Positions 23,238 to 36,194 of a stretch of 37,034 nucleotides of DNA are shown piece by piece (positions within the stretch are counted from its first letter, which is position 1; every line of letters starts with the position of its first letter). Position numbers and translations under genes: made by a program. This DNA is from a bacterium. Its GTDB lineage: Bacteria > Bacteroidota > Rhodothermia > Rhodothermales > UBA10348. The DNA lies in the NCBI GenBank assembly GCA_013204185.1, contig JABMOI010000065.1, positions 1 through 37,034 of the forward strand, in the 5' to 3' direction. The notes beneath the pieces were generated by a model. That model was not told the origin of the DNA, searched no databases, and was given only the letters and a program-made list of their open reading frames with translations.

Positions 23238-24731
23238 ATGTTACTTTCAGGTATTGCCACGCTAGCGGCCTTCTTGCTCGTGGGCCTTGGGTCAAAGTCT
23301 GAACGAAAAAGCCCCTTATTTATGATCGGGGGGTTCGCTGCGTTTGCGCTATCCATCTATTTTCACGTGGTAGCATACCAGACGGTTTTACAAGCTACTT
23401 CAGCGATTTCGGCCGAGATCGGAATCGGTTTCCTGTTGCTCGCCGGGCTGCTCACCAAAGAACGGAAGGAAGCTAAATCTTACTTCTATCTGGGCGGTGT
23501 TAGTTTACTTGTTTCGGTCCTCCTGTTCATCAGTATTAAGTTTTTCTCTCCGTCTAGTGACCCGTCTGGTGACCAGAACACAGTCTCTTTCCTGTTGGAA
23601 TTAGGCCCCGACGATTCTATTTCTGAAGTGCAATCTGTTCTGAATGACTACCAAGCAGTGTCTGAAGCTGCTTTCCCTTCTGTTTCCCTTGAAGAGGACG
23701 AAAATCTGGCCCAAATTTTCTTGGTTTATGTGGCGTCCGATGGGGTTGAAGGCCTCATGCGGGAATTGGGGCGAGATTCCGAAAACGTAGACCATACTGA
23801 GCTAAATTTCAGCGTTTCGCTGGCCGAACCTACGGTACAACGAGGATCGGAGCAGCAAGTTGAGTCCTTGCTAGAAAACGACCCGCTTGCTCCAAGCCAG
23901 TGGGCGCTCAATGCCATCCATGGACACGAAGCGCACGCCATCTTAAAGGACCTCTCGCCTGTTCGCAAAGCTCGTGTTGCCATTTTGGATACAGGAGTGG
24001 ACGCATCCCATGAGGACCTGGACTCAGCGTTCTCCCAGAGTCCTGCCACCCTCGACTTACACGGCCATGGAAGCCATTGCGCCGGAATTGCTGGAAGCGC
24101 GACGAATAATGGAATTGGCATGGCCTCGTTAAATTGGGAAGGTCGCTTCATTGAAATCTTAGGCTACCAGGCCCTTAATGAGCAAGGAACAGGAACCATT
24201 GAAATGATTTCCCAGGCCATCATAGACGCGACAAAGGATAAAGCTGATGTAATCTCAATGAGCCTCGGCGCAAAAGCAGAAACCCCGAAAGTTATTTCGG
24301 ATGCCATTGCATTTGCACGCCGAAATAAAGTCATAGTCATTGCGTCTGCTGGAAATGCCAATGAGGACGCCATTGACCACATGCCCTCCAGCGTGGAAGG
24401 CGTTATCGTTGTCTCGGCCGTCGACGAAAACTTACAAAAAGCGACGTTTTCAAATACAAATACCTCACTGAAGCGGCCCATTACGGCCCCAGGAGTTAAC
24501 ATTCTTTCTCTAAAAGCAGGCGGCGGGTACGTTGAAATGAGCGGCACTTCCATGTCCACTCCAGTTGTCTCTGGACTAGTCGGGATTATGCGTTCTCTCA
24601 ATCCAGACCTGACTGAATCCGAAGTTTATGATATCTTAGAGTCTACCGGTCGGAGCGTTCGAGATAGCGCTAAAATTGGTAAATTGATCGACTCGGAAGC
24701 AGCTATAACCACCGTGCTCAATACAAAATGA
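23238..24731 (+). CDS. Membrane-anchored subtilisin-like serine protease (S8)
   Basis: A 497-residue protein. Residues 1-104 form four hydrophobic segments (~2-18, 27-47, 57-73, 84-102), with positively charged loops SKSERKS and TKERKEAKS, so by the positive-inside rule the catalytic domain should lie outside the cytoplasm. Residues ~115-200 look like a small alpha/beta propeptide-type domain. The S8 domain (~215-495) is intact: D251 in AILDTGVDASHEDL, H277 in HGHGSHCAGIAGS, the oxyanion N373 in IASAGNA, and S438 in MSGTSMSTPVVSG. No secretion signal or C-terminal sorting domain is present. Multi-helix N-terminal anchoring is unusual for subtilases, which mostly have a cleaved signal peptide. 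The stop overlaps the GNAT start (ATGA), indicating translational coupling. Confidence 0.92.
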   Translation: MLLSGIATLAAFLLVGLGSKSERKSPLFMIGGFAAFALSIYFHVVAYQTVLQATSAISAEIGIGFLLLAGLLTKERKEAKSYFYLGGVSLLVSVLLFISIKFFSPSSDPSGDQNTVSFLLELGPDDSISEVQSVLNDYQAVSEAAFPSVSLEEDENLAQIFLVYVASDGVEGLMRELGRDSENVDHTELNFSVSLAEPTVQRGSEQQVESLLENDPLAPSQWALNAIHGHEAHAILKDLSPVRKARVAILDTGVDASHEDLDSAFSQSPATLDLHGHGSHCAGIAGSATNNGIGMASLNWEGRFIEILGYQALNEQGTGTIEMISQAIIDATKDKADVISMSLGAKAETPKVISDAIAFARRNKVIVIASAGNANEDAIDHMPSSVEGVIVVSAVDENLQKATFSNTNTSLKRPITAPGVNILSLKAGGGYVEMSGTSMSTPVVSGLVGIMRSLNPDLTESEVYDILESTGRSVRDSAKIGKLIDSEAAITTVLNTK

Positions 24732-25234
24732 CCCAGCCGCCTAAATGGATTATTCGAACAGCCACTCAGGATGACGCATGTTCGATCGCATCCATTTATT
24801 CGGAATCCATATTGGCACGCAATGCTACCATGGTATTGGATCCCGTGTCGTATGAGAAAGTGAGCGAACAAATTCGCGGCCTAAACGAGCGGGAATCCAT
24901 CATTGTGGCAACCACCAGCCACAGCCTTGTGGTGGGTTGGGGTATCGTCAAGTTTTACAGCGACCGCCCTGGCTACGCTTCGGCTTGTGAGACCTCCCTT
25001 TTTGTTGACGCGACCTATCGAAACCAGGGCGTCGGCAATGCAATCCAAGCGGAATTGGTCCAACGCGCAAGAAAGGCCGCATTCCATCACATTGTGGTTA
25101 AAATCTGGGCTCAAAACCAATCCAGTATCGTGCTCCATGAAAGGCACGGCTTTGAAATGGTGGGTATCCAAAAAGAAATCGGCCACGTCGATCAAAAATG
25201 GATCGACGTGGCCGTCATGCAATGTTTGCTTTAA
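24728..25234 (+). CDS. GNAT N-acetyltransferase (phosphinothricin/methionine-sulfoximine type)
   Basis: A 168-residue protein. The order of motifs matches the PAT/MddA branch of GNAT: IIRTATQDDACSIASIYSES (motif C/D region), ETSLFVDATYRNQGVGNAIQ (acetyl-CoA pyrophosphate loop, Q-x-x-G type), and KIWAQNQSSIVLHERHGFEMV (motif B). Relatives acetylate methionine sulfoximine/sulfone, phosphinothricin or similar small amines (family knowledge). Here the third gene downstream encodes a free-methionine-sulfoxide reductase, a loose thematic link only. It overlaps the subtilase stop by 4 bp (ATGA at 24728-24731). Near its 3' end the gene carries a perfect 13-bp inverted repeat, and its stop codon lies inside the first copy of a 17-bp tandem repeat. 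Confidence 0.9.
   Translation: MTQPPKWIIRTATQDDACSIASIYSESILARNATMVLDPVSYEKVSEQIRGLNERESIIVATTSHSLVVGWGIVKFYSDRPGYASACETSLFVDATYRNQGVGNAIQAELVQRARKAAFHHIVVKIWAQNQSSIVLHERHGFEMVGIQKEIGHVDQKWIDVAVMQCLL
25181..25213. repeat. Perfect 13-bp inverted repeat inside the 3' end of the GNAT gene
   Basis: GGCCACGTCGATC (25181-25193) and GATCGACGTGGCC (25201-25213) are exact reverse complements with the 7-nt loop AAAAATG. They encode the end of the protein (GHVDQ...WIDVAV), finishing 18 bp before the stop codon. The RNA would form a very stable stem. There is no following T-run, so it is not a standard intrinsic terminator. Confidence 0.9.
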
Positions 25235-26271: not shown

Positions 26272-27975
26272 CTAGTCTACGTTTAAACCAAAAGAAAACC
26301 GCATCAAAAGATCCGGGACGCCCACTACCTGCACCCCTACATCCAACCTGTCGAACAAGGTATACGAACGGCCAATAGACACTGAAGTGGGAAGCATTCC
26401 CCCTAACAAGCGCTCTAGGTCTTCCGAAAACGTATTGTCAAGCCCATACACAACCGGCTTGCCCCACTGAACCGCGCCTGAAAAGCGATATCTCGGGTTT
26501 GAGTATTTAGTCCAATTGCCTAGCAATTCCATTAAAACGCCATCCACATCCAGCGTCAAGATTCGCAGGGGGATATTCCAAGAACCTACCCCATTTTGGC
26601 GTTCTTGTCTGCCCAGGTCAATGCCAGCCTTTATTCCCCAACTTGGCTTTTTGCCCAATTTATATCGCTGAAGTACGCCGTTCTCTAGCCCGTACTCACC
26701 CTCAACGGCGAGCGAGCCGAAAAATCGAGTCAAGTTGAACACAAGTAAGTGCCGCCCCATTGGGAAATCGATGCCGGCTGTCAGAGTAGAAGGAGTGTAA
26801 ATGTTCATCCACTGCCCAATTGCATCGTGGGTTTGCCGCGTCTGGTTGGGCCTTGACAAATCCAGTAACTCGATGTCCAGCAAGTCTTTATCACTTGAGT
26901 CCTGAGAATTCAGGACTCCTTCAAGGTTTATGAACTTGGGCATGTAAGACAAAGCAAATGCATCCCCATCCCACATCTTGATCTTAGGCGCTAAATCCAA
27001 ATATAGAGACGTCCCTAACTTTTCCAAATAGGTGCGATGCATGAGCCCCATCCGTGCCCCCACTCCGCTTCCTTGGAATCCGCCTCGTATTCTCCAGAAA
27101 AACGCGTTCGTTTCTTGTTGAAGAGGGTCTAGATTGAGATCCCCCGAGTCATTAAAGTAGAATTGCTCGGTGCCCGAAATCGTTAACACACCCTGAGGCA
27201 GCATATCGAGACTAAAGTGAGCAGAAGCGCCCAGCCGGTACAGCGTTATGCCCCACCAAACGGTGCCAAATGGATACGGCTCTAGCAAGCCGCCAGTCCC
27301 GATACTTATTTCATCTAAATGCACGTCGATTGCCGAGTTAAGAGACAGCTCCGCCAGCATATCAACTTGAATGGAGTTGGAATTGCTCTCTTTTCGCCCA
27401 CTGAGAAGGGTTTGAAAACCAGACAATTTCAGGCTGCTTGAAAATAAAAGAGGCTGCCGATATCCAAATCCAACGGCTACCGTTCGTTTAATTGGCCACG
27501 TCAACCAAAATGCGGAGACTTGCCGGGGCTGCCCAATTGCAGCAAATTCAGTATCGGTATAGTGCGGGGTCTCATCAGCTGGGAAAGACAGGTCGGACAA
27601 AAAACCATCTGTCTTCCGATTAACTGAAGCAGGCAACCGATTCGTCGAACCAAATCCTAAAGACCCGTTTCTAAAAGAAAGCCGCGATTCAAGACCAATT
27701 TGTGGCCGGCCCACCAAAGAGAGCAGCGCTGGATTTCCAAAAATACTTCCCCCATCTGGCGCAGCCATCGCACTATGAATGCCAGAAAAAGAACCACTTA
27801 GTCCGCCTGATCCAAACAAGTTTGAGCCAAGTCGAATATCCATGTATGCCCTTCCGCCATCGAAGGAAAGAGCGGTGAAGTCTTGGGACAAGTTTGATTG
27901 AGCTTGAATAAGAGTCGGAGTAAAACCAACCAACCATAGAAAAATCAACACACGATATGTCCGATTCCTCCTCAT
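26272..27975 (-). CDS. Outer-membrane beta-barrel protein of the giant-protein operon
   Basis: A 567-residue exported protein. The signal peptide runs from the basic N-terminus through VLIFLWLVGFTPTLIQA, with cleavage predicted before Q26. The mature part is dominated by alternating polar/hydrophobic strands separated by short turns, typical of an outer-membrane barrel, and it ends in MRFSFGLNVD with a near-terminal aromatic. GSIFGNPALLSLVGRPQIGLES near residues 75-97 resembles the N-P-A motif of FadL/PorV-like barrels. It is not a recognised named family. Its ATG overlaps the stop of the upstream barrel gene (ATGA on the minus strand, 27972-27975), so expression should be coupled. It is the last gene of the operon and may be a second membrane partner for the giant protein. 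Confidence 0.72.
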   Translation of the reverse strand: MRRNRTYRVLIFLWLVGFTPTLIQAQSNLSQDFTALSFDGGRAYMDIRLGSNLFGSGGLSGSFSGIHSAMAAPDGGSIFGNPALLSLVGRPQIGLESRLSFRNGSLGFGSTNRLPASVNRKTDGFLSDLSFPADETPHYTDTEFAAIGQPRQVSAFWLTWPIKRTVAVGFGYRQPLLFSSSLKLSGFQTLLSGRKESNSNSIQVDMLAELSLNSAIDVHLDEISIGTGGLLEPYPFGTVWWGITLYRLGASAHFSLDMLPQGVLTISGTEQFYFNDSGDLNLDPLQQETNAFFWRIRGGFQGSGVGARMGLMHRTYLEKLGTSLYLDLAPKIKMWDGDAFALSYMPKFINLEGVLNSQDSSDKDLLDIELLDLSRPNQTRQTHDAIGQWMNIYTPSTLTAGIDFPMGRHLLVFNLTRFFGSLAVEGEYGLENGVLQRYKLGKKPSWGIKAGIDLGRQERQNGVGSWNIPLRILTLDVDGVLMELLGNWTKYSNPRYRFSGAVQWGKPVVYGLDNTFSEDLERLLGGMLPTSVSIGRSYTLFDRLDVGVQVVGVPDLLMRFSFGLNVD

Positions 27976-28973
27976 AGCCCAACTAGAAGGGAAACGTGTT
28001 GGGTGGTTGCGAGAAACGAGGATACGTAGGCATAGTCAACGCTCAGTCGCAGATCCATGGATCGAGGCGTCCTAATCCCAAATCCGAACGTGCTCACTTC
28101 GTTTTTGTATCCATCTTGTAGAAGCATGCGCCCCGCGCGTATCGAGATAGAATACACCGGACTGAAATCAGCTCCAAAACCTATGCGGCTTATCGAAGAT
28201 GAGGCAAGGTCTGGAACCCATTCCAACGCCCCCGAAATATGATCTGACAACTGATAGGTAACGCCAGTTGAAATTTCCAGCGGGATTGATTCTACATACG
28301 ATGAAACCTCAGGCCTAGACTGACTTGCGGACTTCCACGTAAGCGGAGCAGTCACATTTTTGGCTGAGATACCCCAGCGAACATCCGCCCCCAACTTCAT
28401 CAAGAGTCCCAGATCTACATTTAGCCCGGAAGCATTTCCGTACACCTTTCTGTTATTGGCTTCGTCGACATCCGAGTCACTAAACACGTGATAATCCGAA
28501 GACGAAATCGTATTTCTGCCAAAAGAAGCACTTCGATATCCAACTCCCAATCCCAACCACATAAATGCAATCCGGTGAGAATACCCGAAGTGAACAGATT
28601 GTTCAGTCAGGGCCTCGTCTCCAGAATATTCTGCTGAAAAGGCGACTGCATTTCGATTGCTGAACAGCGGAATAGCAATGGATACGTGCCCGTAGTCAAT
28701 TAAACCGAGTTGATCGACATACGAAAAGCTTGCTTCCAATCCATCCGCTGGATAGATCGAAGCGATATTCCAATTCACTGCTCCAGCTCCTGAAATGGAG
28801 GCGGTTCCTGTAAAACCTTGCCCAGCCACGTGCGCACCAATTCCTATGTCCGCAAAGGCACCCGGGATGGCAGATAGCTGCCGCGCGTTTACTCGATGAG
28901 TAAACGTGAGCAATATTGCCAGAATCAGATAAAATGAAGTGCGTTGCATATGGTTATTTCGGGGCGTGGCCAT
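27972..28973 (-). CDS. PorV/PorQ-like outer-membrane beta-barrel protein
   Basis: A 333-residue exported protein. The second methionine (28949) starts a classic signal peptide (MQRTSFYLILAILLTFTHRVNA), so the true start may be there. The mature N-terminus GAFADIGIGAHVAGQGFTGT followed by GAGAVNWNIASIYP follows the PorV/PorQ pattern: small-residue-rich plug, then W-N-I/P-A-x. About 12-14 amphipathic strands follow, ending in QHVSLLVGL. PorV and PorQ work with the type IX secretion system (T9SS) of Bacteroidota: PorV shuttles cargo from the translocon to the attachment complex (family knowledge). The gene lies 14 bp after the giant-protein stop and overlaps the next barrel gene by 4 bp. Which PorV-type role it has cannot be told; a dedicated partner of the giant protein is inferred. 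Confidence 0.75.
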   Translation of the reverse strand: MATPRNNHMQRTSFYLILAILLTFTHRVNARQLSAIPGAFADIGIGAHVAGQGFTGTASISGAGAVNWNIASIYPADGLEASFSYVDQLGLIDYGHVSIAIPLFSNRNAVAFSAEYSGDEALTEQSVHFGYSHRIAFMWLGLGVGYRSASFGRNTISSSDYHVFSDSDVDEANNRKVYGNASGLNVDLGLLMKLGADVRWGISAKNVTAPLTWKSASQSRPEVSSYVESIPLEISTGVTYQLSDHISGALEWVPDLASSSISRIGFGADFSPVYSISIRAGRMLLQDGYKNEVSTFGFGIRTPRSMDLRLSVDYAYVSSFLATTQHVSLLVGL

Positions 28974-28987
28974 GCCTGCTAGTTCGG

Positions 28988-29290
28988 CTATTTGACCAAT
29001 ACCACGGGAAGCATCCGCGAAGTAGATCCGTTATTATCTCTGGCTGTCACTCGAATGATATAACGTCCATTTCTCGCCTTTTGGTTGTCTTCAGTCGTTC
29101 CGTCCCACTCAATTTGCTTGAGGCCATTACTGCCTCCATAAGGCCCAGCCCACTGTTGGTCGCCATCTAGTATGGTCTTCACCAGCTCGCCCCGCATGTT
29201 GAGTACGTGAATACTTACGGTTGCAGGAGGAGCACTCGTATCTAAAAAGTATGCGATACGCAGAGGTGCAATTTCTGGGGAAAATGGTGA
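28988..29290 (-). other. FlgD-like/T9SS-type C-terminal domain of the giant protein
   Basis: Residues ~2276-2375: APLRIAYFLDTSAPPATVSI, VLNMRGELVKTILDG, QIEWDGTTEDNQKARNGRYI, RVTARDNNGSTS and a final VVLVK. This is the Ig-like fold of FlgD and of many Bacteroidota C-terminal sorting domains (P-x-P-F-x-P, W-D-G-T, N-G-x-Y-x-x-R-V). It is the probable secretion or surface-attachment signal. Confidence 0.7.
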
Positions 29291-32200
29291 TGGCAGGGCT
29301 TCTAGGTATTTAATTCCTAGTTCCTGGCTTTGAACAACCACGTTATAGTCACCAAGCCTGGTAGCCATCGTGGTCACAACGTTGGTTTCACTTGCAAAGG
29401 ATGGAAGAGCTTGCCATGAAAGTGTCGATTCATCGAAATGCCCTATCTGCTTCCCCCCTCCATAAAGGGACAAGGCAGGGTCTTGACGTAGCGTTAAGGT
29501 TGCTGGCGCGGCGAGCGAATCGCCTAAAAGAGCACGATCTGAGCGTAATGAAAACCGATAGGTTTTAACTCCAGAGGTTAACCCACCACTGCCATCCGTT
29601 CCCGATTCAAACCTTTTGGGCGAGGGTGTTCTTGGGTAGGATAAAGAGAGTTCAGATTTGAATGGAAACGATGTGGCAGGAATAAACAACTCCATTCCGT
29701 TGTAGTCGGTCAGGGAAATGGCCTGGTCACCATTGATGTCAGCATAAACGGAAACGGTTGCACTATCTGACGCTCCACTTTGTGCATCGAGGACTGTAAT
29801 GGCTAGCGGTCCGATATACTTCGAATTCTCAGTAGTTACTGTGCCCGACTGATTTATAGTTGCTGCGACAGACGGCTCCACCGTCCAAAAAACCGAATTT
29901 CCGAGCAAAACACTTCCGCCCGTTTGAGTTGTCCCCGAAACAGAAAAACGAGATGTCCCACCCTGATTTACTACACGAGTCGACTGGGCGTTGATCAGAA
30001 GACTTGACACTTGAACGGAGCGCGCTTCAAATTCTATGGGCACGACGCTTTGTTTTGAGCCAAGGGCAATGCGGACCTCAATGGCAAAGGTCCCCTGGGA
30101 TCGAGGTGTGATGATGGCTGTTAGCTTGGTTCCCCCAGAATTGGTGTCTATTCCAACGTCTCCGGCAACAGATATCCACTGCACTTGACCCCGTTGAAGG
30201 ACGTCCTCTGAGATATCGACACCTAACCCATCTCGTATTTGTAAAGCGACTCCGTACTGGTCTGAAACCCTCAATATTTGGCCGTTAAGGTTTGGAAACA
30301 GCCGTGTTTCTTGTAATTGACCTGAAACAACGGTTGTACGCTCTATGACAGATGAACTGTATTCCACAGAACCAGTGCCTGAGAGCACCTCTACAAAATA
30401 TTGGATCTTCCCTTCTCCAGGAGGCGGGATGGAAGCAACGAATGCACCGTTCTCAAATGCCATCACGATCTGCTCGGGAGCTTGTCCCGGAAGTTGATAC
30501 GAGAGCTTCGCTGAGCGATTCAAATGCGCTGTGCTGCCAACAGATGAAACAGAAACCACCACGGGCTGATCGCTTCGGATGATGTCTTTTGGTGTGTGAG
30601 CAAAGGGCAAAACCAAGTTTGTTCGCTGCTCACTATCGATTAATAGCAAGACAACTTGACGACTGGAAGTGCTAGGCTGCAACAAACTCGTGTTTAATAT
30701 CTCAACTGTGTAATTACCAGGATCGAGTACGGCTCCCGTTTCAAACACTCCATTTGAGTTGGTAACGCCTTGCACCGCGCCGCCATCTTGACCCCGGATC
30801 AGAACTTCCACACCAGCAAGAGACGCTATGCCATCGTTTAGTTCGACTGTAATTTTCCCTGAAGCCAACGTAATGGGCTCAAGATCAATTGTTTGCCCCA
30901 CATTTGCATTGGAAACAGATATGCGACGTACTATCGGAGGCCGGCCCGGGCGCTGAACGGAAATTTCGATTACCGTTTCCCCTGTCTCTGAAACCGGCAC
31001 GTTCGTAAATGAAAAGGTACCTAAAGTGTTTGTTACCACCGATACATTCAGCGGTCCCGACAGGGACACCGTTAGACCGGGAACTGCTTGGCCGGCGCGC
31101 ACAATCGTGCCGCGGATTTCAACACTTTGCCGTTGAAGAGCCAGTTGAATCCCTGAAACGGTCGCATTCTCTGCAACCGTAACCGTTGTAGAAGATGGAA
31201 TAAACCCAGTTTTCCTACCCGTAATGACGTAGGTCCCTGGAGGCAGCGGTCCCAAGGTGAACTCGCCGGAGGTGGACTCGGTAAGGTAGTCTTGAGACAA
31301 GCCTGTCTTCGCCGTAACGGTTACACCCGATATTATGGAGCCTTGTGTGTCTTTCGTCTGCCCAGACAGAAATGAGTTGATCCCAAAGACCGTAAATGAT
31401 GCCGTTGCTTCAGCTTGAGAGCCTAAATCGATGTCAATAAACGCTGGGTCAAACAACCGAGTCGTTGAAACGGGTTCGATTCGATAGCGGAGTCCGAGAG
31501 GAAGCTGCTGAGGTAGAAGGGTTCCGTTCGCATCCGTACGTAGGGTTTGGTCTATGGAACGATCAAAGCTGGAAACCCTTACGGGGACATCGAAAACGCC
31601 TGTTCCATCCTGCCGTCGAACTTGAATCGTGACTAGTCCAAGATTTGAGGTAGCGGAGAAAGAGGCGGTTCCAACTTCATTCTCTGATACAGTCAGTGTC
31701 CTTCGAGTTGGTGCAAATTGATGCCCCAGCTTTGTGGGAATGACTTCATACGAACCGGCCTCGAGAAAGGGTACTTTAAAGGTTCCATTTTCGATACTTG
31801 TGGCAACAGCTACGGTAGCTCCGGCAGCGTCCAATATCGTGATTGTTACACCGGTCAATCCTGCAGATCCCGTGATGGCAGAGGATAACGTCACGATGCC
31901 GACGTCCCCAAGCGAAAGTTGCGTTTCGCTATTTCCAATTGGGATAACACGTTCAATATCACGATAGTTTTCGCGCTGAATCCGTGTACGAAGGACTACT
32001 TTTTCACCTTGAGGTAACTGATCAATCACAAAGCGACCATCGGCCGAGGTAAACACCTGATGCTCTTCGCGAGTTGTTTTTACCTCAACCGACACATCAA
32101 ACGGGAGAGCAGACCCATTCGTCGAGCGAATCCTCCCCGTTAGGACGGCCTGATTCCGTCTCATTCCGATGCTAGTCGTGGTTGTTTGGCCGTTCTGAAC

Positions 32201-35200
32201 AGAAATGAGCTCGTTTGAGTACCGGTAATTGTCTAAAGACGCCGTCAGCGTCCAACTACCACTTTCCAATCCTGTAATTTCGAATGCTCCCAACGCGTTA
32301 GAACGAGCGCTCTTAACCCCGAATTGGCTTGTTGCCACAATCACCACCCCAGACAAAGCGGACGAAGTCGCTTCATCTTGGACAAGACCAGATATTAGTC
32401 CTGTCCCTTTCACAAGTTGAATTGTGGGAGCAATCGCCGTCCGATTTGAGGATGAAAGCGTCACTTGAACGGAAGGAGCTAACGAGTAACCATTTTTTTG
32501 AGCCGAAATGGCATACCCACCATCCGGTAAGGATTCGAATTGATACGATCCGTCTGCACCAGACTGGGCATAAATCTCATACGTCCCGCCTTCCAGCCGA
32601 AGGGTGGCGCCTGGGATTGGGTTACTTGAACTATCCACGACGCGTCCGTTAATCTTGCCGAAAACAGGTACCATAACAAATGTTTGACGTGACGTCACAT
32701 TTGATGGTATGGAGACACTTCTCGCCACCGTCACAAAACCGGCAGACCTAACCGTTATTTGATAAATGCCCGCTGGAAGCCCTGAGAAAGTCACCACACC
32801 CTCCGAGCTCGATATGCCCGTTCTTGAACCTGGACCAATGGCAGACAATGAAGCCCCTACAATAAGACTTCCGTTGCGAGGGTCTAAGATGGTCGCGATA
32901 AGGGTGCTTTGGGAGGATTCTAGAGTTATTGAAATATTTTCAAGGCGTTGACCGGCACTAACGCTCAGGGAAACGCTAGCTGATTCAAACCCGGTTGAGC
33001 TAACTACCATCTCATAGGAACCCTTTTCAACGTTCAATTGAAATGACCCGTCTGTACTGGTTATTGTTGAGAATTGAGTTATGCCGCCTACCTTTATCGC
33101 AACGTTTGCGCCAGAGACAGCCTTTCCCTCTGCATCTTTGACTTTACCTTTGATCACGGCTTCCGAAGCAACCAGCGGCAGATCCAAGGCCAACGTTGCA
33201 CCTGGCAAATCAGTGGTTAGCGAGTATCTAAATGGATTAAACCCTGGCTCATCCATCTCCAAATCAAACCTGGTTGACGCAGACAATAGAGCTGTATACC
33301 TGCCCGATGCCCCACTAATCGTCTTGAGTGTCGAGGCAATTCCACGCGACTGATTCACATCCACCGCGTTGATCATTGCTCCCTTAACTCCAACACCATT
33401 GTATTTTACAAACCCATCTAACCGCACGTAGTCTTCTTTCATGATCAAGTCGAAAGATTCTACTGTTTGCCCAGCCCTGATCGGCAGAGAAATCGCATCT
33501 GGCAAACGGTACCGAGGTGACGCAGCTTGAATTTGCCATGTTCCGCCGGGCATCTGAAGCACATAGTGTCCCCCAGCATCGCTCGTGGTCTCATAGCTTT
33601 CATTTCCACTCAACGCCACAATTCGTACACCAGCCAATGGTCCTGCTTGCGATCGAACCGTTCCAGATACGTCGGCCGCATTGGGATGTAGTGTCAAAAC
33701 AACCCCAGAGACCTGAGAATTTGGGCCAAGCGCAACGGTTGTTTTTTTGCTCGGAAGGAGGCCCTTTTTAGACGCTCTTAGAGTTTGAGCGTTTGCGGAA
33801 AGTTGAAGTACAAATGTGCCTCCAGTTTGCGAAAGTGTGGACTGCCCGTCCGATGTTTGAACCTCTGCGCCCTCTATTCCCTCTCCCCCGGCCGATACAA
33901 CTCGACCAAATACCGTGGAGGTAAACTCATTCAGACTGAAATTTACGTCTCTGAATATCTCATTGGGTCTGATCATCAGGTCAATCTGACTCGATTGCTC
34001 ATAGCCTTCGGCCGAGGCGAACACAGAGTAGAAACCAGTGCCCAAATCTAAAACGTATCTTCCCAAATTGTCGGCGTCAACTTGAATTCCTTCCCCATAC
34101 AAAGGGTATGCGGTGACATGAGCTCCACCTAGCGTGATTTGCTCTGTTCTTCCGTCGCTTAGTGTCCGGACCCCAAAAGCTGTCCCTTCGATTCTGCTTG
34201 CTTGCTGAACAAGAATAAAGTCTACATTTTCCAGCACATCGCCAGCAAACAGCGTCAATGCGCGGGGAATCGGGGCTAAAAACCCATCCTTTGTGGCAAA
34301 AACAGACCAGATTCCTTCACTTAGAGCCAACGACCACCTTCCGTCTCCATTCGTAACAATAGTGTGGGATTGTGCCCCCAGAACCGCAGTTACAGGAACG
34401 CCAGATATCGGGATGCCGTCTTGATTTACCACCCGCCCAGAAATGGACACGTGGTCGTCCACAATTTCTAGAGGCAGTGGAAGAGATAAAACCTGATTTT
34501 CTAGAACGGAAACCGTGATCGGTATGGAAGCTCGAAATCCTGCTTTTGTCGCTGTAATTCTGAACGTTCCCGGAGATAGGTCGCGAGAAAAGACGCCAGT
34601 TGTTCCTGATTTTGTTGAGAAGGTTTCACCAGAAGGCACACCTACAAAGTTGAGCGTGGCATTTTCGACTGGAAAACCCGAGTCGTCAACAACCTGTCCA
34701 TTGATTCTTGAGGGAAGCGGGTCCATCGAAATCGGAACAGATGTGTTGACACCTTTTCTGATTTGGACAGGCAAAATTTTATCAGCAAACCCAATCTTGG
34801 TCGCTTTAAACTCATAGTTGCCCACCACGAGACTGTCTAAGAAGGCCGACCCATTCGAGTTGATCCACGAATTAGGGGGGGTATATCCCCCATCCGTCGA
34901 GCGCCCCTTAACAACCACACCTAAGATCTCGGCCCCGTTGCTTGATGAGGTGGTACTAAATTCAAACGTGCCCATATCGGCAGCATAGCGAAACGTGCCA
35001 AAACCAGAGACACTTCCCGCTCCTTCTCGGTCATTGGCAATAACGAACCAACGATATTCGCTTTGTCGGAAAACAGATTTTGAGGAGATCGTTATGAACG
35101 GATTGGGCGTGTTACCTGAAAACACCTGCACATCGGAGATGGCCGATACGTCTTTAATTCTCTCATACACCGACACATCGTAGGAAATTGCGCCGTCGAC

Positions 35201-36115
35201 TGGTTCCCAAGAGAACTCGGTTACTTCCTCCCCAGCGATGCGCACATTTTGGGTTGGGTAAACCAAGTTGGCGGGCGTGAGCATGCCTCTGTTTTCTAGT
35301 GAGAATGAAACCACATTCCCGATTACGTAACTAAGCAAGCCCGGATCACTTTTACTATACGCGTTCAGAATGGTGTAGTAATACGTTTGCCCTGGAACGA
35401 GGGGAAGTGGGTTGAACTCGACCAGCGGATTTGTCTCCGGTCGCTCACCATATAAGGCTGCTGTATTTGTGGTTGAATGAAGCCATACTGGGTTTATTCC
35501 CTCCACATTCGGCTCCCCGCTCGGTCCCGAAGAAATGGTGAACGGTGTACTTGAAATAATAATTGCGTACGAAACAACACCCGGGACAGGCTCCCATTCA
35601 AACGTAGGGACTCGGTCTGTGATCGTGCCACGAGGAGCGATTACTCGAGGGGCTACCAGCGATTCAATTACGAACAAAAACTCGGTAGAGTATCGGATAT
35701 CGGGGTTTGTAGAAGCTTCAATTTGAATCTCGGTGAAGCTATTGGACGTGGCGTTGGTCAAAACTCCGTAGTAGACCCCTACAGGCAAGCCGACTACTTC
35801 GGGACTAAACGAAGACTCACGATCGCCCCGCATGCGAATGGATTTCAGGCCGTAAGTCCCTGGTATTTGGCCGATTTTCAAATTCAGATCACTGTTGGCC
35901 TCCTGCCACCTAACGGTGACGACATCCTCGGCCCGAAACATAATGGTGGTCGTGGTCGATCCTCCACGAACAACTTGTGGACTTCTTAACGTCACATTTT
36001 GGCTAAATGCGGGAAGCACCCAACAAACCGAAACCAGTGTCGCCAGCAAGAACTGACGGCACCAGCGGAGAGATATTTCCGAGGCAAATAGCCGCATAAA
36101 GCCTGTGCGAAACAA
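28988..36115 (-). CDS. Giant secreted multi-domain surface protein (tandem carboxypeptidase-regulatory-like domains)
   Basis: A 2375-residue protein, first gene of a three-gene unit. A signal peptide core at residues ~21-38 (QFLLATLVSVCWVLPAFS) lies behind a long N-region; M7 may be the true start. Residues ~155-380 hold two FN3-like modules (FEWEPVPGVVSYAI, FSWEPVDGAISYDV). Residues ~383-1842 hold about 17 tandem 80-92-residue beta domains of the carboxypeptidase-regulatory/CNA-B type (G-x-V-x-D-x-x-G-x-P-I-x-G-A, D-G-x-F-x-L, L-x-x-G-x-Y-x-I-x-A). Then come Ig-like domains (~1843-2120), a dockerin-like loop (2126-2137), a ~130-residue beta region, and a FlgD-like C-terminus. The chain is probably a long rod on the cell surface; a T9SS route is suggested by the C-terminus and the adjacent PorV-like gene. 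No enzyme domain is seen. Adhesion or structural function is inferred. Confidence 0.88.
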   Translation of the reverse strand: MFRTGFMRLFASEISLRWCRQFLLATLVSVCWVLPAFSQNVTLRSPQVVRGGSTTTTIMFRAEDVVTVRWQEANSDLNLKIGQIPGTYGLKSIRMRGDRESSFSPEVVGLPVGVYYGVLTNATSNSFTEIQIEASTNPDIRYSTEFLFVIESLVAPRVIAPRGTITDRVPTFEWEPVPGVVSYAIIISSTPFTISSGPSGEPNVEGINPVWLHSTTNTAALYGERPETNPLVEFNPLPLVPGQTYYYTILNAYSKSDPGLLSYVIGNVVSFSLENRGMLTPANLVYPTQNVRIAGEEVTEFSWEPVDGAISYDVSVYERIKDVSAISDVQVFSGNTPNPFITISSKSVFRQSEYRWFVIANDREGAGSVSGFGTFRYAADMGTFEFSTTSSSNGAEILGVVVKGRSTDGGYTPPNSWINSNGSAFLDSLVVGNYEFKATKIGFADKILPVQIRKGVNTSVPISMDPLPSRINGQVVDDSGFPVENATLNFVGVPSGETFSTKSGTTGVFSRDLSPGTFRITATKAGFRASIPITVSVLENQVLSLPLPLEIVDDHVSISGRVVNQDGIPISGVPVTAVLGAQSHTIVTNGDGRWSLALSEGIWSVFATKDGFLAPIPRALTLFAGDVLENVDFILVQQASRIEGTAFGVRTLSDGRTEQITLGGAHVTAYPLYGEGIQVDADNLGRYVLDLGTGFYSVFASAEGYEQSSQIDLMIRPNEIFRDVNFSLNEFTSTVFGRVVSAGGEGIEGAEVQTSDGQSTLSQTGGTFVLQLSANAQTLRASKKGLLPSKKTTVALGPNSQVSGVVLTLHPNAADVSGTVRSQAGPLAGVRIVALSGNESYETTSDAGGHYVLQMPGGTWQIQAASPRYRLPDAISLPIRAGQTVESFDLIMKEDYVRLDGFVKYNGVGVKGAMINAVDVNQSRGIASTLKTISGASGRYTALLSASTRFDLEMDEPGFNPFRYSLTTDLPGATLALDLPLVASEAVIKGKVKDAEGKAVSGANVAIKVGGITQFSTITSTDGSFQLNVEKGSYEMVVSSTGFESASVSLSVSAGQRLENISITLESSQSTLIATILDPRNGSLIVGASLSAIGPGSRTGISSSEGVVTFSGLPAGIYQITVRSAGFVTVARSVSIPSNVTSRQTFVMVPVFGKINGRVVDSSSNPIPGATLRLEGGTYEIYAQSGADGSYQFESLPDGGYAISAQKNGYSLAPSVQVTLSSSNRTAIAPTIQLVKGTGLISGLVQDEATSSALSGVVIVATSQFGVKSARSNALGAFEITGLESGSWTLTASLDNYRYSNELISVQNGQTTTTSIGMRRNQAVLTGRIRSTNGSALPFDVSVEVKTTREEHQVFTSADGRFVIDQLPQGEKVVLRTRIQRENYRDIERVIPIGNSETQLSLGDVGIVTLSSAITGSAGLTGVTITILDAAGATVAVATSIENGTFKVPFLEAGSYEVIPTKLGHQFAPTRRTLTVSENEVGTASFSATSNLGLVTIQVRRQDGTGVFDVPVRVSSFDRSIDQTLRTDANGTLLPQQLPLGLRYRIEPVSTTRLFDPAFIDIDLGSQAEATASFTVFGINSFLSGQTKDTQGSIISGVTVTAKTGLSQDYLTESTSGEFTLGPLPPGTYVITGRKTGFIPSSTTVTVAENATVSGIQLALQRQSVEIRGTIVRAGQAVPGLTVSLSGPLNVSVVTNTLGTFSFTNVPVSETGETVIEISVQRPGRPPIVRRISVSNANVGQTIDLEPITLASGKITVELNDGIASLAGVEVLIRGQDGGAVQGVTNSNGVFETGAVLDPGNYTVEILNTSLLQPSTSSRQVVLLLIDSEQRTNLVLPFAHTPKDIIRSDQPVVVSVSSVGSTAHLNRSAKLSYQLPGQAPEQIVMAFENGAFVASIPPPGEGKIQYFVEVLSGTGSVEYSSSVIERTTVVSGQLQETRLFPNLNGQILRVSDQYGVALQIRDGLGVDISEDVLQRGQVQWISVAGDVGIDTNSGGTKLTAIITPRSQGTFAIEVRIALGSKQSVVPIEFEARSVQVSSLLINAQSTRVVNQGGTSRFSVSGTTQTGGSVLLGNSVFWTVEPSVAATINQSGTVTTENSKYIGPLAITVLDAQSGASDSATVSVYADINGDQAISLTDYNGMELFIPATSFPFKSELSLSYPRTPSPKRFESGTDGSGGLTSGVKTYRFSLRSDRALLGDSLAAPATLTLRQDPALSLYGGGKQIGHFDESTLSWQALPSFASETNVVTTMATRLGDYNVVVQSQELGIKYLEALPSPFSPEIAPLRIAYFLDTSAPPATVSIHVLNMRGELVKTILDGDQQWAGPYGGSNGLKQIEWDGTTEDNQKARNGRYIIRVTARDNNGSTSRMLPVVLVK
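29705..29740 (-). other. Dockerin-like calcium-binding loop in the giant protein
   Basis: Residues 2126-2137 read DINGDQAISLTD, with D, N and D at positions 1, 3 and 5, Ile at 8 and Asp at 12, as in a dockerin/EF-hand loop. Only one loop is present, whereas cellulosomal dockerins have two, so it is more likely a calcium-stabilised linker than a cohesin partner. Confidence 0.6.
30590..34969 (-). repeat. Array of ~17 tandem beta-sandwich domains (protein-level repeat)
   Basis: Domain starts at residues ~383, 469, 556, 640, 732, 814, 897, 986, 1071, 1153, 1239, 1323, 1413, 1493, 1580, 1665 and 1753, a period of 80-92 residues. Most copies open with x-I-x-G-x-V (RINGQVVDD, SISGRVVNQ, VIKGKVKDA, KINGRVVDS, LISGLVQDE). 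Copies 13, 14 and 17 are the most degenerate. Copies share motif but no obvious DNA-level identity, so the array is old rather than freshly duplicated. Confidence 0.8.
34976..35653 (-). other. Two FN3-like modules at the N-terminus of the giant protein
   Basis: Residues ~155-270 and ~275-380 each begin with a P-x-x-G/N-x-x-x-x-x-x-F-x-W-E-P-V-x-G-x-x-S-Y pattern and contain a late Y-x-W/Y-x-V/I strand (QTYYYTILN, EYRWFVIAN). This is the usual look of Ig/FN3-like modules in Bacteroidota surface proteins, here preceding the repeat array. Confidence 0.6.
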
Positions 36116-36165
36116 CTAATCGTTGTTTTTCGCTTAATTAAGGTGTTTTGCGACTATTAACTCAA

Positions 36166-36194
36166 ATCCTATGCCAAGTAGGGTTTGGTCTCAA
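36166..36194 (-). promoter_or_regulatory. Candidate promoter of the giant-protein operon
   Basis: On the minus strand, TTGAGA (36194-36189) and TAGGAT (36171-36166) are separated by exactly 17 bp and match 9 of 12 sigma-70 consensus positions. The -10 ends 50 bp before the ATG at 36115. Position and spacing are good, but no experiment supports it. Confidence 0.4.

Follow-up and report, generated by a model that had tools for sequence, protein, structure and literature searches.

The window analysed here, which is the whole stretch of 37,034 nucleotides, carries three co-directed genes on the minus strand at the end of its contig. They encode a giant secreted rod protein (28988..36115), a barrel of 333 aa (barrel 1; 27972..28973) and an outer-membrane barrel of 567 aa with an NPA motif near its N-terminus (barrel 2; 26272..27975). 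As reported in the preliminary description, the ORF list gives the giant 2375 codons, barrel 1 follows after a gap of 14 bp in the window sequence, and the genes of barrel 1 and barrel 2 overlap by 4 bp (ATGA). The reported length holds for the ORF counted from its first in-frame start, a TTG at 36115, but an ATG at 36097, 18 bp (six codons) inside, is the likelier start. Since the nearest orthologue starts with an ATG at the aligned position, the protein probably begins there and consists of 2369 aa.

From the N- to the C-terminus, the giant contains a signal peptide (by sequence inspection), a conserved head with FN3-like domains (residues 38–400 at 34916..36004, minus strand, the stretch used for the reciprocal search below), a rod of repeats (residues ~357–1857; 30545..35047, minus strand), an Ig-like C-terminal region and a FlgD_ig/PorU-like C-terminal domain (residues 2262–2375; 28991..29332, minus strand), the last being a putative sorting and anchoring domain. 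Domain scans found about 17 CarboxypepD_reg-like repeats in the rod, in agreement with the earlier account of the cargo as a rod of such domains. Upstream of the giant (36163..36194, minus strand) lies the motif TTGAGAC-N10/11-TTGGCAYAGGATTTG, a possible promoter with sigma-54-like -24/-12 spacing in which TTGA replaces TTGC. It precedes the giant in five genomes of the window's own family (the window, L040, L042, L047 and L048) and is conserved in this family only; a looser form of its second half occurs once in 235 kb of sequence from the window's own genome. On the other side of the trio, at 23238–25234, a subtilase gene overlaps a GNAT gene close to ArsN1-type arsinothricin acetyltransferases, and this pair adjoins the trio's locus in several own-family genomes.

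The three genes were found to be conserved as a block, also in bacteria that are only distantly related. Full-length giants are present in 16 of 395 genomes of the phylum, and all 16 encode both barrels in the same order. With the profile of the N-terminal head, a full-length head was detected in 17 of the 395 genomes, 16 of which are shared with the set of 17 detected with the barrel 2 profile; in the shared genomes, the giants have 2355–2421 codons in open frame. Many weak matches to the head profile in other genomes, mostly over its FN3-like end, were set aside. The two discordant genomes hold remnants, in G090 nothing but a truncated head that runs into a stop codon and in G315 nothing but barrel fragments. 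Fisher's test for co-occurrence of head and barrel 2 gives 2e-26 when the genomes are treated as independent. Their relatedness makes this value an overestimate of the significance, but chance does not account for the pattern, and the coupling goes far beyond it. A search with the giant alignment returned five loci from Rhodothermales or Bacteroidota MAGs, apparently members of the family already known.

Adding two more family members to the 16 genomes gave 18 sets of the three proteins. The order is identical in the 18 loci, with spacings from +33 bp to overlap, although in one (G101) two contigs each carry part of barrel 2. Six relatives from the same family, whose giants are 30–64% identical to that of the window, carry this order, and in each of eleven loci outside the family, read directly, the giant is followed by barrel 1 and then barrel 2, while the flanking genes of the trio differ between families. 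Of 14 splits, 12 are common to the trees of the three proteins, so that the block has for the most part been inherited jointly, and the distances correlate at 0.74–0.87. The proposal that the three genes constitute one unit is upheld by the constant order and the shared splits. Giants occurring regularly without the barrels were looked for, and the exceptions proved to be broken remnants.

Where the block has been lost, all or most of the giant and of barrel 1 is gone, together with all or part of barrel 2. Two genomes carry in-frame fusions from large deletions. In G100, the first 683 residues of the giant are joined to the last 71 residues of barrel 2 (L047 10463–12670), whereas in G103 the last 62 residues of barrel 2 are preceded by the start of a TonB receptor-like protein (L049 149–910). 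G086 lacks the giant and barrel 1, and its barrel 2 starts at about residue 144. Most of the genomes with such scars are fragmented drafts, so that any one case might reflect faulty assembly; the firmest is G090, a genome of two contigs that retains only the head of the giant.

Upstream of the giant is a DUF4249 gene cut by the contig end, and in several own-family relatives this gene follows a TonB-dependent receptor gene, both preceding the giant. Given the known pairing of DUF4249 proteins with TonB receptors (PMC11003636), the giant and its barrels might act together with these two proteins in nutrient capture. This is very improbable, because neither gene adjoins the trio in the other-family loci read or in two genomes of its own family. 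The receptor and DUF4249 genes were rejected as parts of the unit on the ground that their association with the trio does not extend beyond the family.

Barrel 1 had been described as PorV/PorQ-like. The window protein scores 46.6 bits against the PorV/PorQ family (NF033709), below the cut-off of 90, but all 18 members match this family at E ≤ 0.001 (best 4.3e-27), and the best solved relative is PorV. Judged by these matches, barrel 1 is best classed as a divergent branch of the PorV/PorQ family. Barrel 2 had been assigned to no named family, and the window copy indeed has no Pfam hit and no match to the FadL/TodX family (PF03349). This can be refined, since PF03349 matches 6 of 21 barrel 2 rows (best 2.1e-8) and a fold search with the predicted structure (pLDDT 82) ranks FadL first (E 1.9e-5), with modest TM-scores to FadL-type proteins, mostly 0.35–0.53; a sequence search of the PDB with barrel 2 found nothing. 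Taken together, the predicted fold and the remote profile matches suggest that barrel 2 is FadL-like, which would place both barrels in the same broad superfamily. With the FadL/TodX family, which includes BamG, barrel 2 appears to share its predicted fold and the NPA motif, but it is about 150 residues longer than the solved members, is strictly tied to the giant and, in the window copy, lacks any Pfam hit.

The rod is of nearly constant length. The mature giants measure 2349 ± 15 residues (range 2324–2374) among orthologues with 26–64% identity to the window protein, and the repeat region measures 1505 ± 11. The count of CarboxypepD_reg-like repeats is 17 for 13 of the 18 orthologues and 18 for the other five, where a split match is likely because the total length is unchanged. 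When four orthologues were tested, 15 to 17 of the 17 repeats had their best match in the repeat at the equivalent position, whereas the repeats within one giant are only 25% alike. With number and order thus fixed, repeats appear to have been neither gained, lost nor homogenised. Repeat adhesins usually vary in repeat number, and by this comparison, drawn from general knowledge and not from a control set, constant length and fixed repeat order are unusual. The head and the C-terminal domain are the most conserved parts of the giant; a PDB sequence search with the head returned only noise.

The C-terminal domain (about 102 residues when counted from LPSPFSP onwards) passes FlgD_ig (PF13860) with 31.2 bits against a gathering cut-off of 27 over residues 2294–2360, this being a general Ig-like fold found also in FlgD itself. 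The same domain matches the end of the PorU model in 17 of 18 members, and among 14 proteins of the window's own genome with such tails, the PorU tail scores best against its profile. On these profile comparisons, the domain resembles that of PorU. The window giant fails the T9SS type A model (TIGR04183) with 14.3 bits versus 23, the match lying on a repeat and not on the tail, and of 18 C-terminal regions one matches (E 4.7e-5); NCBIfam scans gave no match to the type B domain (TIGR04131). Structure prediction confidently resolves the C-terminal region into successive beta domains (pLDDT 91). Sequence searches of the PDB with the C-terminal domain mostly found FlgD, and a fold search with the whole region found generic Ig-like chains including S-layer proteins, which is uninformative.

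Type B substrates are known to be encoded with a barrel gene directly downstream (PMC12618676). The same layout for a giant surface protein recalls SprB and SprF, and the trio could accordingly be a gliding adhesin system of this kind. We consider this extremely unlikely. Barrel 1 scores only 25.4 bits against the PorP/SprF family (TIGR03519; cut-off 90.55) and is PorV/PorQ-like instead of PorP-like, the C-terminal domain is of FlgD_ig/PorU type and not type B, there are two barrels, the rod is constant in length with a fixed number of repeats, and the T9SS motor subunit GldM was not detected (see below). Membership of the SprB/SprF system was rejected on the tests of the C-terminal domain and the barrel.

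The PorU:PorV and PorZ:PorQ pairs of the T9SS attachment complex offer a better precedent than SprB/SprF, since a PorU-like C-terminal domain is encoded here beside a PorV/PorQ-like barrel. In Porphyromonas gingivalis, PorU is anchored through PorV and PorZ through PorQ (PMC5562754), and the C-terminal domains (CTDs) of PorU and PorZ are not removed (PMC11285876); protection of CTDs by cognate PorV-like barrels has also been proposed (PMC10202324). In these pairs a CTD protein is held at the surface by a PorV/PorQ-type barrel, an arrangement to which the PorU-like CTD and the adjacent barrel of the trio may correspond. The trio differs in its cargo, a rod of about 2370 residues that has no peptidase domain, in the tight linkage of its genes as a single unit, and in a second, FadL-like barrel, which is always present.

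With a probability of roughly 0.6, the giant, barrel 1 and barrel 2 form one surface assembly in which the giant is exported via SprA and held uncleaved by barrel 1. We infer the secretion route, binding, anchoring and orientation of the giant as follows: i) the giant would cross the inner membrane by Sec, using its signal peptide, ii) the C-terminal domain would direct it through the SprA/Sov translocon, iii) barrel 1 would receive this domain at the translocon and keep the giant bound, instead of passing it to PorU for cleavage, iv) the rod would be anchored non-covalently in the outer membrane with the conserved N-terminal head pointing away from the cell, and v) barrel 2 would be a partner that the assembly requires and might provide the base with a second subunit.

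The export machinery bears on this reading. SprA scores above cut-off in the window's own genome and in each of the 19 genomes that carry the unit or a remnant of it, so that the outer-membrane export system looked for is indeed encoded; it is found as well in 27 of 27 family genomes searched, with or without the unit, and its presence does not discriminate between them. On another contig of the own genome, PorU is followed by a strong canonical PorV. Of the T9SS core genes that the preliminary description proposed to look for, the SprA/Sov translocon is present in the genome, but the GldM/PorM motor was not detected: among 12 unit-bearing genomes, neither the window's own genome nor 10 of the other 11 gave a match, a profile silence that does not amount to absence, and G216 gave one weak match. 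Unit-bearing genomes with SprA and without detected GldM might have a divergent motor, or none.

The missing GldM match and the strict linkage of two barrels to one cargo would suit a dedicated export path formed by barrel 1 and barrel 2 without SprA. Both barrels are of FadL/PorV type, and known members of this type are narrow, plugged barrels, which argues against such a path, as does SprA in 19 of 19 genomes; we regard it as quite improbable.

PorU and the canonical PorV lend themselves to another interpretation, in which the giant is ordinary T9SS cargo, barrel 1 a mere shuttle and barrel 2 a separate, co-expressed transporter. PorU would then cleave the C-terminal domain, cleavage being the normal fate of type A CTDs after shuttling by PorV (PMC10202324), and the rod would be released or linked to surface polysaccharide. 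This interpretation is unlikely, given that both barrels accompany the giant in every intact locus and that barrel 2 is lost along with the rest of the trio. The length of the C-terminal domain also speaks against it, though weakly, because about 102 residues falls within the 96–108 of the unprocessed CTDs of PorZ and PorU and above the 67–88 of processed ones (PMC11285876).

Retention of the giant by barrel 1 would make the trio a case of private partnering. In Flavobacterium johnsoniae, one PorV serves all type A cargo, and it is for the PorP/SprF type that private partners are on record (PMC12618676). With a conserved giant, a PorV/PorQ-like barrel dedicated to it and a second barrel, such partnering would reach the PorV branch as well, and the trio has the look of a so far undescribed variation on type IX secretion; the literature searched, which takes in few subscription journals, contained no description of it. 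It is possible, though we propose it only tentatively, that the trio is an undescribed surface apparatus with the fixed-length rod as a molecular spacer on a two-barrel base, within a wider scheme of PorV paralogues as private anchors. The constant length of the rod raises the question of which distance is kept, and between what. With only three genes, the unit is compact enough to be tested directly by genetics.

Dedicated partners of the PorV type may be more widespread, since several PorV paralogues of the window's own genome, which has 12 PorV-family matches, sit behind CTD cargo of their own. On contigs C49, C38, C72 and C110, a PorV-family gene lies directly behind an ORF of 1089–1211 residues with a CTD-like tail, the call for the C38 and C72 proteins depending on inspection and weak profile scores. 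These four proteins, encoded with their downstream PorV-family genes at L153 1004–5556, L154 7119–11431, L155 2423–7091 and L158 5921–10389, have no Pfam domains. On contig C256 (G000; L152 6361–9928), a gene for a FlgD_ig protein is followed by two PorV-family genes, each overlapping the previous one by 4 bp, which is the same three-gene arrangement as that of the trio with a smaller cargo.
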